In this document: positions 32,902 to 41,115 of the stretch, one piece after another
How the letters are laid out: every line of letters starts with the position of its first letter
Numbering within the stretch: position 1 is the stretch's first letter
Assembly (NCBI GenBank): GCA_021323535.1
Contig: JAJONO010000046.1
Span: 1-52,409, forward strand
Direction: 5' to 3'
Source: Bacteroidota bacterium
GTDB taxonomy: Bacteria > Bacteroidota > Bacteroidia > B-17B0 > Aurantibacillaceae
Length of the DNA: 52,409 nucleotides
The notes under the pieces: generated by a model
Databases searched by the model: none
Seen by the model: only the letters and a program-made list of their open reading frames with translations
Told to the model about the DNA's origin: nothing
Made by a program: the position numbers and the translations under genes

Positions 32902-35598
32902 ATGAGCAAACTCAGAATAGGAATTATTTTTGGTGGACAAAGCAAAGAGCGCGAGATCTCTTTTGCGGGCGGAAGAACCGTTTACGACAATCTCAACAAA
33001 TCGCTTTTCGAAGCAATTCCTGTGTTTGTTGATAGCTTCGGGAATTTTGTGGAACTGAACTGGGAGTTTGTTTACAAGGGAACCATCCGTGATTTTTATC
33101 CTCCTGTTGATTTCCTTCCTTCGCAATCCGATTTTCAATTATACGCCGAAAACCTTGGTGAGCTAAATCCCGAAAAACAAAATGAACTGATCTCTAAGAT
33201 CGGAACCAAACTATCTCTCCGTGATCTGAAAGAAAAAATAGATTTCGCTTTTTTATGTCTGCATGGTCCTTTTGGCGAAGATGGAAAAATACAGGGACTT
33301 TTCGAGTACTGTGGCATTCCTTATAGCGGTTCCGGAATTCTTCCTTCTTCCATTGGAATTGACAAAAGCGTTCAGAAAGAATTAATGGTAAACAAAGGGT
33401 TTAATAGTCCGGCTTATATTACCATTAAACGCAACGACTGGATAGAAGGTAAGGCGAAGAGTCCTTTTAAAACTGTGAAGGAAAAAATCGGATTCCCTTG
33501 TGTAGTAAAACCTGCCAATCAGGGATCAAGCATTGGTGTTACGGTTTTAAATTCTGAAAATGAATTTGAATTTATGAGCGCCGTTGAGAAAGCATTATTT
33601 ACACGCTGGCTCGACGCAAAAGAATGGCAGGCGCTTTCGAAAGAAGAAAAAATTCTTTTCGTAAAATCCCTGAGCGATATCCGTGAAGGAATTGGTATGC
33701 CGGTAACGATCACGTATCCGAAAGAATTAAATTCCCCCGTTATTTATGACCCTAATAAACTTATTGAATTTCTAGATGCTCATCTGAAAGAAGACGGATT
33801 TGTAGTAGAAAGCTTAGACGGTGAAAGCACTGTTCTTGTAGAAGGTTTTATTGAAGGAAAAGAATTCAGCTGTATTGTTCTTGAAGATGAAAATGGAAAA
33901 GCCATTGCGCTTCCTCCTACCGAAATACGAAAAGGAAAAGAGCTCTTTGATTACAGAAGTAAATATTTACCGGGCTTATCAAGAAAAATTACGCCCATAG
34001 ATTTACCAGATGCCCAAATCGAAGCTATTCGTAAAGACTGCGAGAAATTATTCTACGAATTACATTTTGATGTGTATGCCCGCATCGACGGCTTCTTAAG
34101 CAAGGACGGAAAAATTTTCCTGAATGACCCGAACACCACGAGTGGAATGATGCCATCATCGTTCTTCTTTCACCAGGCAGCGGAGATAGGTTTAAATCCA
34201 TCTCAGTTTCTTACCTTCATCATCAGAACTTCACTGGCAAAACGTACCATTCAGTCAAAAGGAAATGTTACATTCAGAAGATTATTAAATCACCTCGATG
34301 AAATTATATTGAAAGATAAAAACGCGGCGAGTAATAAAATTCGTGTGGCGGTGGTATTGGGGGGATATTCTTCGGAGAGACACATTTCCGTAGAAAGCGG
34401 AAGAAATGTGTTTGAAAAACTATCTTCATCTGAAAAATATGCGCCGTTCCCGGTGTTCTTAACAGGCAGTAACCAACAGCATGAGATGTATCACATTCCT
34501 ATCAATTTAATGCTGAAGGACAATGCTGACGATATCAAAGAAAAAGCAGAGAATTTCAAGGTGCACACCGTGATTAAAAATATTATGAAAGAGTGTGAAG
34601 CTATTACCAATAAATATTCTTCGGCTTCAGCAATTTCTTCTCCTGAAAAATTATCTTACGATTCTTTAAAACAAAAAGCAGACGAAGTGTTTATAGCACT
34701 TCACGGGAGACCCGGAGAAGATGGCGCTATCCAGGAAAAATTAGATTTGGTTGGGTTGCCTTATAATGGATCAAACAAAGAAAGTTCTTCTATTACCATT
34801 GATAAATACCGCACCAATGAAATTCTGAAAGAAAACGGATTTCTTGTCGCTGAACATATTCTTGTCACACAATCAGACTGGAACAATGATTCTTCGAAGA
34901 TCGAAGACGTTCTCAAAAATAAAATCAAATATCCGTTCATAGCTAAACCGGTTGACGATGGTTGCAGCAGCGCTGTGAAAAAAATAAAAACCTTCGATGA
35001 GTTTAAAGCTTTCTGCAAATTAATCTTCAGAACTTCAGAAGAACTCGACAGCTCGGCTGCAAACACACTTCACATCAAACCAAAAGAAGAGTTCCCGCAA
35101 AAGCAGGTCATTCTTGTAGAAGAGCTCATCAGCAAAAAAGACGCGGCACATTTTCTCGAAGTAACAGGCGGTATGCTCACGCGTTTCAATAAAAAAGGAG
35201 AAATTGAATACGAAGTATTTGAAGCTTCGGAAGCGTTGGCTGACGGTGATGTGTTGAGTCTCGAAGAAAAATTTCTTGCCGGCCAGGGACAAAATATTAC
35301 TCCCGCCCGTTATTCTAAAAAACCGGCCGATAGACAAAAAGTAAGCGACCAGGTAAAAGCAATCCTGGGAGCCGCAGCAAAAGTACTTGGCGTTACGGGT
35401 TATTGTCGTATTGATGCCTTTGTTCGCGTGTTTGCTGATTGCCGAACCGAAGTTATTTTCATTGAAGTGAACTCTCTTCCGGGAATGACACCCGCTACCT
35501 GCATTTTTCACCAGGCCGCCATCAACAACTACAAACCTTACGAATTCATTGACAACATTCTTGAATTTGGTAAGAGTCGGGTTTTGCAGACTACATAA
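32902..35598 (+). CDS. Tandem-fused D-alanine-D-alanine ligase (two ATP-grasp halves)
   Basis: 898 aa in one uninterrupted frame, against about 300-370 aa for ordinary Ddl, which makes D-Ala-D-Ala for peptidoglycan. Two complete Ddl-like units follow each other. Half 1 (1-450): GGQSKEREIS 11-20, HGPFGEDG 121-128, ATP loop KPANQGSSIGV 203-213, FDYRSKY 349-355, RID 394-396, but LNDPN 407-411 where ExN is expected. Half 2 (478-898): GGYSSERHIS 487-496, HGRPGEDG 601-608, altered ATP loop KPVDDGCSSAV 682-692, no DYxxKY, RID 836-838, and a normal IEVNSLPGMTP 854-864. Half 1 also has about 60 extra residues near 225-310. The halves have degenerated at different motifs. Family is certain; whether each half is active is open. 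Confidence 0.9.
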   Translation: MSKLRIGIIFGGQSKEREISFAGGRTVYDNLNKSLFEAIPVFVDSFGNFVELNWEFVYKGTIRDFYPPVDFLPSQSDFQLYAENLGELNPEKQNELISKIGTKLSLRDLKEKIDFAFLCLHGPFGEDGKIQGLFEYCGIPYSGSGILPSSIGIDKSVQKELMVNKGFNSPAYITIKRNDWIEGKAKSPFKTVKEKIGFPCVVKPANQGSSIGVTVLNSENEFEFMSAVEKALFTRWLDAKEWQALSKEEKILFVKSLSDIREGIGMPVTITYPKELNSPVIYDPNKLIEFLDAHLKEDGFVVESLDGESTVLVEGFIEGKEFSCIVLEDENGKAIALPPTEIRKGKELFDYRSKYLPGLSRKITPIDLPDAQIEAIRKDCEKLFYELHFDVYARIDGFLSKDGKIFLNDPNTTSGMMPSSFFFHQAAEIGLNPSQFLTFIIRTSLAKRTIQSKGNVTFRRLLNHLDEIILKDKNAASNKIRVAVVLGGYSSERHISVESGRNVFEKLSSSEKYAPFPVFLTGSNQQHEMYHIPINLMLKDNADDIKEKAENFKVHTVIKNIMKECEAITNKYSSASAISSPEKLSYDSLKQKADEVFIALHGRPGEDGAIQEKLDLVGLPYNGSNKESSSITIDKYRTNEILKENGFLVAEHILVTQSDWNNDSSKIEDVLKNKIKYPFIAKPVDDGCSSAVKKIKTFDEFKAFCKLIFRTSEELDSSAANTLHIKPKEEFPQKQVILVEELISKKDAAHFLEVTGGMLTRFNKKGEIEYEVFEASEALADGDVLSLEEKFLAGQGQNITPARYSKKPADRQKVSDQVKAILGAAAKVLGVTGYCRIDAFVRVFADCRTEVIFIEVNSLPGMTPATCIFHQAAINNYKPYEFIDNILEFGKSRVLQTT

Positions 35599-35641: not shown

Positions 35642-37219
35642 ATGAGGACAAAATTTTTTCTTTTCGTTTTTATTCTTTCCTTTTTTGGAATTAAATGCCA
35701 AGTACTTCCCTCCTACTCTGTTACAGTGTTGGATACTGCTTCAAAAGGATATTATTTCATGATCCCTCTTAAATCCGGAGCAGCCTTACCTGGCTACACA
35801 CTTACGCAAAGCATTCTCGACAGAAGCGGAAATCTTGTTTACTATAAAAAATTTCCATTGCCCGCGATAGGTGATTTTAAAATGCATTCCAATGGTTTAA
35901 TGTCATACAGCTGGAAAGGAAAATTTTATCTGATGGATAGCACCTTCACCATAAAAGATTCTGTAACAACACAAAATGGTGTTCCGATCGACAGTCATGA
36001 TTTTCAAATTCTTCCCAATGGACATTTTGTACTTCTTGGGATCGAAAATGTAACCATGGACCTCAGCGCTTATAATTACTTTGGAGCAAATCACACCCTG
36101 GCCGGAAGTCCTACCGCAACCGTGAAATGTGGTGTTATACAGGAACTCGACGTAAACAAAAATGTAGTGTTCGAGTGGCATTGCAAAGATCATTATAATT
36201 TCAGCGACGTGGATCCTCAATGGTTGTTGAGTCCATCAAATGTAGACTGGACACACCTCAACGCGGTGGAATATGATAACGATGGAAATTACATGCTCTC
36301 GGTAAGACACTTTAACGAGATCACAAAAATTAAACGCAGCGACAGTACCATTATGTGGCGCATGGGAGGAAACGCGAACCAGTTTACATTTACGAATGAT
36401 CCCGGAATGTTTATTGGTCAGCACGACATACGACGCGTATCCAACGGGAATGTTACTTTGAACGATAACGGAAGACAAACACCATTTCACGTTGCAGCAG
36501 CAAAAGAATACCAGTTGAATGAAAGTGCAAAAACAGCAACGCTTGCCTGGAGTTATGTGGAAGATAATACCACTTATAGCCGCGCCATTGGGAACTATCA
36601 GAAATTACTGAACGGGAATCATGTGATCAATTATGGTTTTATGAATAACAAGTATCATCTTTTCAATGTAGTAAAATCTAATGGCAGTAAAGTCTTTGAG
36701 ATGCGTTTTGCCGACACACTTCGCTCTTACCGTGTTTTTAATTATCCAACTCTCCCATGGAGTCTGAATCAACCAACACTGGCATGTTCTGTAAGCGGTA
36801 CCAATATTGTATTAGATGCAGGAACTCATTCCGGTTACTTATGGAGCAACGGCGCTACCACGCAAACTATTCTTGTAGCTAACACAGGTACATATTCGGT
36901 GTGGGTACCAAGGGGACAAGGCGGATTTATTTCTTCTCAGATTTACACAGTAAATATTTCTGCGCCATGTTTGTTTACGGATATTAAGAAAAATGATCCT
37001 GTTAATTCTGTAAAGGTTTTTCCTAACCCTTTCTCAGACAAATTAGAAATCGAGTCGGATGGAAATGATTCTCATCTCGAAATTTTCAATTGTGTGGGAC
37101 AAAAAATTCATGAAGAGAAAACTTCGCAGAAAAAGACAGAAATCTCTACCTCTCAGTTCCCGACGGGAATGTATTTCCTGAAAGTAAATAACAAGACTAC
37201 AAAGCTCTTAAAGCAGTAA
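35642..37219 (+). CDS. Arylsulfotransferase-like secreted protein with T9SS type A sorting domain
   Basis: 525 aa. The signal peptide is at 1-20. A beta-propeller-like region follows with SHDFQILPNGHFVLLG, VVFEWHCKDHYNF, DWTHLNAVEYDNDGNYMLSVRHFNEITKI and IGQHDIRRVSNGNVTLNDNG. These are the repeated xxHDxxxLPNGxxLL and WxxDHxN patterns of ASST-type (arylsulfate sulfotransferase) propellers, including candidate catalytic His residues. A Trp-SNGATTQTI Ig-like patch near 400 precedes a type A sorting domain (VFPNPFSDKLEI...GMYFLKVNNKTTKLLKQ). True sulfotransferase activity is not shown; many propellers of this kind in Bacteroidota are uncharacterised. Same direction as the PorP gene. Confidence 0.85.
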   Translation: MRTKFFLFVFILSFFGIKCQVLPSYSVTVLDTASKGYYFMIPLKSGAALPGYTLTQSILDRSGNLVYYKKFPLPAIGDFKMHSNGLMSYSWKGKFYLMDSTFTIKDSVTTQNGVPIDSHDFQILPNGHFVLLGIENVTMDLSAYNYFGANHTLAGSPTATVKCGVIQELDVNKNVVFEWHCKDHYNFSDVDPQWLLSPSNVDWTHLNAVEYDNDGNYMLSVRHFNEITKIKRSDSTIMWRMGGNANQFTFTNDPGMFIGQHDIRRVSNGNVTLNDNGRQTPFHVAAAKEYQLNESAKTATLAWSYVEDNTTYSRAIGNYQKLLNGNHVINYGFMNNKYHLFNVVKSNGSKVFEMRFADTLRSYRVFNYPTLPWSLNQPTLACSVSGTNIVLDAGTHSGYLWSNGATTQTILVANTGTYSVWVPRGQGGFISSQIYTVNISAPCLFTDIKKNDPVNSVKVFPNPFSDKLEIESDGNDSHLEIFNCVGQKIHEEKTSQKKTEISTSQFPTGMYFLKVNNKTTKLLKQ

Positions 37220-40404: not shown

Positions 40405-41115
40405 TTATTTAAACGCTTTACTTATTTCATGGATAAGCGCGCTGTTTTTTTCTAATGCATTTCCTACTACGATCATATTGGCTCCGGCCGAAATTAGTTC
40501 TGTAGCTTTTTTCTCAGAATCAATTCCTCCTCCAACGATCAACGGAATGGAAATTGTTTTTTTTATCTTTTTAATCAGGCCCGCGGAAATTGTTTTCTTT
40601 GCCCCACTGCCTGCTTCCAAATATATGGCTTTAAAGCCCAGTTGCTCTCCCGCCAATGACGTGAAAATAATTTTTGATTGGCTGCTAAGCGGCGTTGTTC
40701 CTGTTATTTTTTGTGTGGTAGACGTATTTCCACCCTCCAGTAAAAGATACGCGGTGGGTAAATGGCTAAGCTTTAGTTTATGAATTAGAGGTGCAGCCCT
40801 TACATGTTTTTCAATAAGGTATTCAGGATTTCTTCCCGATAATAAACTCAAAAGTAAAAGTCCGTCGGCTTGTTTTGTGAGTTGCGTTTCATCGCCCGGA
40901 AAAAGTACAACAGGAATTTTCGAGATCTTTTTTATCTCTGTAATAACCTGCGAAATGTTATTTGTTTTTAATCCGCTTCCTCCAACTAAAAAACAGTTCA
41001 CTTTATTTTCATTAGATAAACGTATCACCTCCGGGTTAAATTTATCCGGGTCCACCAGCACCGCCAGTAAAGGCTTTGAGCTATTGAGTTGTTTTACGAA
41101 TTTATCGAACTTCAT
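40405..41115 (-). CDS. Geranylgeranylglyceryl/heptaprenylglyceryl phosphate synthase (PcrB family)
   Basis: 236-aa TIM-barrel prenyltransferase joining a polyprenyl diphosphate to sn-glycerol-1-phosphate. Family marks: LAVLVDPDKFNPEV near the start, FLVGGSGLK, VLFPGDETQLTKQADGLLLLSLLSGRNPEYLI, AIYLEAGSGAKKTIS, IPLIVGGGIDSEKKATELISAGANMIVVGNALEKN. This archaeal-type lipid enzyme is known from Bacteroidota, where its product has no settled role. The frame overlaps the phosphopantetheinyl transferase by 14 bp, so both are made together. I name the family rather than the chain length because the length-setting residue cannot be judged by eye. Confidence 0.93.
   Translation of the reverse strand: MKFDKFVKQLNSSKPLLAVLVDPDKFNPEVIRLSNENKVNCFLVGGSGLKTNNISQVITEIKKISKIPVVLFPGDETQLTKQADGLLLLSLLSGRNPEYLIEKHVRAAPLIHKLKLSHLPTAYLLLEGGNTSTTQKITGTTPLSSQSKIIFTSLAGEQLGFKAIYLEAGSGAKKTISAGLIKKIKKTISIPLIVGGGIDSEKKATELISAGANMIVVGNALEKNSALIHEISKAFK

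Follow-up and report, generated by a model that had tools for sequence, protein, structure and literature searches.

D-Alanine-D-alanine ligase (Ddl) is essential to most walled bacteria, and the well-known enzymes DdlA and DdlB carry a single Ddl unit per chain. Two ATP-grasp units within one chain are found in the large subunit of carbamoyl phosphate synthetase, although its domains and chemistry differ from those of Ddl. Among Ddl enzymes themselves, a fusion has been reported in plants: according to the available text of PMC9954125, DDL of Arabidopsis (At-DDL) and its homolog in Physcomitrella are fusions of two putative DDL enzymes, an arrangement present throughout the plant lineage. The gene described here, which encodes two Ddl units in a single protein of 898 residues, lies in a stretch of 52,409 nucleotides from a Bacteroidota genome (contig JAJONO010000046.1 of assembly GCA_021323535.1, forward strand), hereafter the window. 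No other Ddl was found in its genome, and on balance we favor the reading that the first half of the protein is the D-Ala-D-Ala ligase and the second half a further, differently tuned site.

The likeness to the plant protein is one of architecture only, namely two fused units in one protein, and the plant enzymes differ in being eukaryotic and plastid-linked; the available text of their account describes neither a half-specific residue pattern nor a stub form. In the open-access literature, to which the search was directed with most subscription papers outside its scope, no bacterial two-unit Ddl and none of the residue patterns reported below were found, and the available portions of PMC4814524, PMC4895993, PMC5717164, PMC5169069, PMC9434261, PMC12681378, PMC10784329 and PMC7432710 contain nothing on a two-unit Ddl. 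The two-unit DDL of plants is therefore known, and what appears new is a bacterial two-unit form with half-specific fixed sites and a probable natural deletion. Ddl is also a target of D-cycloserine, as stated in the available text of PMC5717164.

Two Ddl units in one reading frame

The frame at 32902-35598 encodes 898 residues without an internal stop. Pfam places the Ddl N-domain in two stretches of the protein and the C-domain in four, and therefore two Ddl units are present. Family cut-offs are exceeded for TIGR01205 (389.1 bits for the whole protein versus 245.65), PF07478 (196.1 bits versus 24) and PF01820 (174.4 bits versus 34.6), but the one-unit-per-chain rule of the Ddl family does not hold, as two units share the frame. 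The features are listed below with coordinates in the window; catalytic residues such as Ser150 are numbered by alignment to E. coli DdlB, and counts refer to two-unit proteins (doubles) and to proteins of a related family, designated f86, both of which are treated in later sections.

32902..35598, + strand: two-unit Ddl gene (ATG at 32902, stop at 35598; 898 codons plus stop)
32902..34320, + strand: half 1, a complete Ddl unit and probably the D-Ala-D-Ala ligase site (residues 1-473)
33523..33537, + strand: ATP loop of half 1, GSSIG, of standard form (residues 208-212; the S150 equivalent is Ser in 122/122)
33598..33816, + strand: insert of ~70 residues in the ATP-grasp domain of half 1 (about residues 233-305)
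33946..33966, + strand: omega-loop of half 1, FDYRSKY, with the standard Lys215 and Tyr216 (residues 349-355)
34126..34134, + strand: DPN replacing ExN at the metal site of half 1 (residues 409-411; 122/122 doubles, 55/55 f86 proteins)
34321..35595, + strand: half 2, a complete Ddl unit with a changed site (residues 474-898)
34339..34617, + strand: N-terminal subdomain of half 2, the stub kept in most of f86 (residues 480-572)
34960..34974, + strand: ATP loop of half 2, GCSSA, with Cys for Ser150 and Ala for Gly153 (residues 687-691)
35254..35274, + strand: omega-loop of half 2, LSLEEKF, with Lys215 kept and Phe for Tyr216 (residues 785-791)
35464..35472, + strand: EVN of half 2, the standard metal motif (residues 855-857; E and N in 122/122)
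35497..35499, + strand: T866 of half 2 in place of Ser281 (Thr in 122/122)

A sequence-only reading of the window had described an 898-codon frame with two whole Ddl-type units, GSSIG, FDYRSKY and DPN-for-ExN in half 1, and a changed ATP loop together with an intact metal motif in half 2, and the reading frame, the Pfam matches and the residues at the positions listed bear this out. Its statement that half 2 has no DYxxKY holds for the tyrosine, which is replaced by Phe791, but not for the lysine of the motif, which is retained as K790. The same reading had named an assembly join of two separate genes as a finding that would refute it. Such an artefact, or an annotation error joining neighboring ddl genes, is excluded in practice and has next to no probability: nothing was found in its favor, the fused frame recurs in many independent assemblies, including genomes of one or two contigs (G001, G030, G582), and 122 distinct near-full-length doubles were recovered.

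A model of the full chain was obtained with a predicted local distance difference test score (pLDDT) of 89.6 and a predicted template modeling score (pTM) of 0.89; the lowest block means, 56-65, fell on the two omega loops (351-360 and 781-800), and residues 411-420, which form the loop following DPN, scored 70. When the halves were aligned separately to solved Ddl structures, as the earlier reading had proposed, each covered a complete single-chain structure: half 1 (2-456) matched Salmonella DdlA 3i12 (Z 39.6, root-mean-square deviation 2.8, 341 residues), and half 2 (478-896) matched Thermus Ddl 6u1f (Z 39.3, deviation 2.1, 323 residues), with the Leuconostoc D-Ala:D-Lac ligase LmDdl2 (1ehi) also among its top matches (Z 39.0, tied with others). 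Since either half can be aligned by itself to entire single-chain Ddls, a complete Ddl fold is predicted for each. Both resemble single DdlA and DdlB in fold and in nearly all catalytic residues, at 29% (half 1) and 28% (half 2) identity to E. coli DdlB. The insert of half 1 was not seen in five single Ddls aligned beside it.

Active-site residues and selection

The functional roles of the DdlB residues, including the specificity triad E15-S150-Y216, provide the reference for a census of 122 distinct near-full-length doubles, ranging down to 39% identity, from which 19 frames had been dropped before counting because they were incomplete, had a frame break or were excised from the window gene; the accompanying alignment comprised 67 sequences. 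Without exception across the 122 proteins, half 1 carries E15, S150, Y216, R255, D257, Asp270, Pro271, N272, Ser275 and S281, and half 2 carries E15, Cys150, K215, Phe216, R255, D257, E270, N272 and Thr281. Position 153 of half 2 is Ala in 115/122 and Gly in 7/122. Both halves keep K97, E180, E187, K215, R255, D257, N272 and G276, and K144 is kept throughout half 2 and in 120 of the 122 first halves (Arg in 2). Single Ddls, by comparison, have S150, Y216, E270, P275 and S281 in 31/31. Besides the presence of two units per chain, half 1 is distinguished from single-unit Ddl by E270D, A271P and P275S, and half 2 by S150C, Y216F and S281T; the equivalents of D409, P410, C688, F791 and T866 of the window protein are invariant (122/122).

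These patterns confirm that the halves depart from ordinary Ddl at different catalytic positions. The metal-bridging Glu270 is Glu in every half 2 and Asp in every half 1 (122/122 each), and the Asp is probably functional, being equally invariant (55/55) in the sole Ddl found in family f86. A literature search for DxN as a metal motif in other ATP-grasp kinases found nothing, and no argument is built on such a parallel here. T866 of half 2 stands at the equivalent of S281, which we take to be the position of the product carboxylate. The loop pattern of VanA is absent from half 2, which has Phe at the Tyr216 position instead (122/122).

Median ratios of nonsynonymous to synonymous substitution rates (dN/dS) over 25 close pairs were 0.047 (half 1) and 0.032 (half 2), and invariant positions numbered 77 and 71, respectively. 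Both halves are under strong purifying selection, half 2 being at least as constrained as half 1, and neither half resembles a decaying pseudo-enzyme. The earlier description of the halves as degenerated finds no support, given that D409, P410, C688, F791 and T866 have invariant equivalents in all 122 doubles and that selection on both halves is strong.

Sole Ddl found in the genome and distribution of the double

The source genome (G000) comprises 5.31 Mb in 141 contigs and is 97.5% complete. A search of it with the double protein returned one match, the double itself. PF07478 gave 11 matches, four of which belong to the double and seven to other ATP-grasp enzymes; these seven were considered as a possible hidden Ddl and rejected, being PurT, two AccC, CphA (cyanophycin synthetase), RimK, PurK and CarB. 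A separate single-unit ddl, for which the sequence-only reading had suggested looking, was thus not found by either protein or C-domain searches. The genome also encodes MurF and, in fusion with alanine racemase, a further MurF-like unit:

G000:C68:83094-84344; G000:C76:7950-9194: MurF and MurF-alanine racemase units

With these present, the genome has an ordinary stem-peptide pathway for a Ddl product to enter, and the double, as the sole Ddl found beside MurF, is probably the D-Ala-D-Ala ligase of the organism. An M15 protein of the same genome scores 97.7 bits, below the D-Ala-D-Ala dipeptidase cut-off of 176.

The distribution of the double was examined in genomes of relatives, in a draw across the class (presumably Bacteroidia) and in a draw across the phylum. 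Every candidate was scored in the survey of relatives, in the survey of f86 and in the follow-up of second matches, whereas at most four candidates per genome were scored in the class draw and two in the phylum draw; the class tally counted a double at E below 1e-100. All 36 same-genus genomes have the double, in four cases (G012, G013, G022, G032) in pieces at contig ends or at a frame break, and the 23 other-family genomes in the survey of relatives divide into 10 with a double, 11 with a single Ddl and 2 that gave no match. In the class draw, the double was present in 91/197 genomes and 34/61 families; two of these 34 families (f42, f51) are mixed, and a further one (f60) is mixed across the class and phylum draws. 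No separate Ddl was found beside the double in the 46 double genomes of the relatives' survey, and none was detected among the candidates scored in the 91 of the class draw.

Several second matches were followed up and rejected as further Ddls. Those in G064 and G103 reached only 18.6 and 19.4 bits, where the lowest best-piece score of any single Ddl in the survey of relatives was 39.8 bits; those in G137 and G183 were C-terminal pieces of the double itself; and those in G053, G076, G092, G192 and G203 were, by their query ranges, pieces of one gene. Two of the doubles encountered are frame-broken, in G183 (L168/L217) near the C-terminus and in G013 (L141) in the first N-domain region, through either assembly error or recent damage.

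Across the 394 genomes of the phylum draw, matches at E up to 1e-60 were obtained in 8, all of the same class, comprising five doubles and three copies of a shorter form. The 79 named loci found with query-specific patterns are all titled as Bacteroidota taxa. A scan of viral_contigs gave no relative, and no double was found on plasmids among the matches listed (25 of 540 matching records), which are all below 60% identity and, at ~0.4 to 1.2 kb, too short in span for a double.

Origin of the fusion and a probable natural deletion in half 2

A first maximum-likelihood tree (68 rows) was built from 31 single Ddls, three references and the separate halves of 17 of the 122 doubles. All first halves fell into one clade and all second halves into another (100/100 each), and both clades lay together on one side of a branch that separates them from the single Ddls and references (98/97). 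The halves of one protein are 22-31% identical, and distances among first halves correlate with those among second halves (r 0.96 over 7381 pairs). Given this correlation and the single clade formed by each half, the data fit one old fusion event.

The shorter form of the phylum draw occurs in G393, G449 and G568, all of family f86, and in each without any other match when every candidate was scored. In the survey of that family it was present in 61/61 genomes from 30 genera, seven of these genomes being in one contig. Its frame encodes 555-677 residues, and its match to the double stops somewhere from query residue 469 to residue 600, in 4/61 short of residue 515. The loci are as follows:

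L245, L246, L247, L250-L301: f86 loci, encoding half 1 and mostly a remnant of the half-2 N-domain

No further match of Ddl strength was found in the 61 genomes with all candidates scored, and DPN and the checked catalytic residues are kept in 55/55 of the fetched proteins. A hidden Markov model (HMM) of the half-2 N-domain recognized 46/55 of the f86 tails at E up to 1e-3 (best 1.3e-23) and 0/275 shuffles, and the half-1 N-domain HMM recognized 13/55 (best 8.5e-9); the HMM of the half-2 core recognized none (0/55). The GG loop of the half-2 N-domain is recognizable in 9/55 tails. One f86 protein was modeled (whole-chain pLDDT 91.6, pTM 0.91), and its tail is confidently folded. An alignment of f86 proteins comprised 46 of the 55 fetched. 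In a second tree, built with 18 of the 122 doubles and without rows S_L122 and VanA, the half-1 parts of f86 group with the half-1 rows, with 100/100 for the union.

Because the f86 tail is half-2-like, these proteins point to a loss rather than to an intermediate stage, and the simplest reading is that the half-2 core was lost after fusion while its N-subdomain was kept in most members as what may be a docked structural piece. As the sole Ddl found in 61/61 genomes, with DPN kept in 55/55 proteins, half 1 is very probably a working ligase alone. Obligate complementation between the halves is unlikely, given that the catalytic core of half 2 is gone in f86.

Function of the two halves

The reading that we favor supposes an old Ddl duplication joined head to tail in one frame. 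Half 1 would most likely be the D-Ala-D-Ala ligase proper, with DPN probably still holding the metals. Half 2 probably binds ATP and Mg and, with its triad remade as Glu-Cys-Phe, would probably carry out ligation with a different substrate preference, and its N-terminal subdomain probably plays a structural role as well, packing against half 1. We infer catalysis by both halves and altered specificity of half 2. A second site of altered preference is favored because the ATP, metal and oxyanion residues are retained in half 2, S150 and Y216 are replaced, and the Phe that it carries is compatible with the phosphoryl step, as E. coli Ddl Y216F was solved with ADP and a phosphoryl phosphinate (1iow, from the entry title). 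Phe at the Tyr216 position is shared with LmDdl2, a Phe-type ligase that makes D-Ala-D-Lac. Half 2 differs from that enzyme in having Cys for Ser150 and Thr for Ser281 and in being tied to a Tyr-type half. F261 of the Leuconostoc Ddl is presumably the counterpart of DdlB Y216. According to the available text of PMC5996685, Phe in place of Tyr marks the D-Ala-D-Lac depsipeptide ligases of lactic acid bacteria, and the F261Y change in the Leuconostoc Ddl switches its activity.

A number of observations weigh against parts of this reading. The role of half 2 is drawn from its residues, and the peptidases expected of a D-Lac pathway do not accompany it: M15 (VanX-like) peptidases occur in 12/48 double genomes versus 22/51 single genomes (Fisher p 0.09), which is the opposite direction, and without enrichment alongside doubles the case for a D-Lac pathway is weakened. 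The two half clades stand as sisters at the end of long stems (1.14 and 1.65 changes per column), so that this placement could reflect long-branch effects, and positions of f86 inside and beside the doubles were not separated (approximately unbiased test, p 0.34). Five f86 genomes (G594, G618, G634, G646 and G647) contain a further weak match of 19.9-27.5 bits, the sequences of which were not fetched. Position 275, just before Gly276, is Pro in 55/55 f86 proteins versus Ser in 122/122 first halves of doubles, so that f86 shows tolerance of DPN, yet does not demonstrate the exact half-1 site of the doubles.

The alternatives differ mainly in what they assign to half 2. The main one makes it a sensor of D-Ala or ATP. 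As a regulatory pseudo-ligase, it would bind ATP and D-Ala or D-Ala-D-Ala and tune half 1 without ligation. The changes at S150, Y216 and S281 fixed in half 2, together with that at G153 in 115/122, would suit such a role, as would its absent core in f86, which a regulator could afford to lose, and the persistence of the N-subdomain beyond the core in most f86 proteins (46/55 recognized, and folded confidently in one model). This explanation is possible but doubtful, as half 2 retains the checked ATP, metal and oxyanion residues in 122/122 doubles, its dN/dS shows it to be as constrained as half 1 or more so, and the Y216F structure 1iow indicates that Phe alone does not stop the phosphoryl step. 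A two-product enzyme, in which D-Ala-D-Ala would come from half 1 and a further D-Ala-D-X dipeptide or depsipeptide from the Phe-type half 2, is a more specific proposal that we consider rather unlikely.

The sequence-only reading had suggested an obligate pseudo-dimer, in which each half has lost a function and supplies what the other lacks, so that both jointly form one working ligase. The altered motifs do sit in different halves, and among doubles the halves are found apart only at contig ends or frame breaks. Each half nevertheless spans the whole Ddl fold and neither lacks the core catalytic residues, while f86 appears to live with half 1 as the sole Ddl found in 61/61 genomes. The claim of mutual supply is therefore not supported, and the pseudo-dimer is very unlikely; in contrast to carbamoyl phosphate synthetase, one half appears to be enough in this related family. 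The other suggestion of that reading, a different product, may apply to one of the halves, since Phe at the Tyr216 position is what switches Ddl of lactic acid bacteria to depsipeptides (PMC5996685).

Across one class, then, about half of the families sampled were found to have Ddl only as a two-site form whose second site hardly varies. Single, double and one-and-a-stub forms constitute a natural series for testing the role of each site, and the two-unit DDL of plants gains a bacterial counterpart for comparison. Were half 2 to make a different product, the Gram-negative stem terminus could no longer be taken as uniform, as textbooks have it, and a two-product enzyme would give about half of the families sampled in the class a second stem-peptide terminus built into their Gram-negative peptidoglycan. 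Were it to regulate, it would represent a new way of controlling Ddl.

Genomic context

Among double loci with long enough flanks (n=77, some of them duplicates of one genome), RdgB is encoded upstream in 25 and a PASTA protein downstream in 24. PASTA also adjoins ddl in 9/20 single-Ddl stretches, and in several genomes RdgB, PASTA, a type IX secretion system (T9SS) protein and RluD are neighbors common to double and single ddl loci. As PASTA stands beside single ddl too, the double often occupies a locus shared with single ddl. In G382 (L248:1742-5341, + strand), the double Ddl is extended without a frame break by a hydrophobic stretch and then a PASTA domain (PF03793), all within a frame of 1200 residues, a fusion that joins Ddl to a protein often encoded just downstream.

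In the window, ddl is preceded by a metallophosphoesterase gene and directly followed by a gene for an arylsulfotransferase-like protein that carries a sorting tail for type IX secretion (35642-37219, + strand). Further downstream, at 40405-41115 on the - strand, a geranylgeranylglyceryl-phosphate synthase family protein (PcrB) is encoded, a member of an archaeal-type lipid enzyme family in a bacterium.

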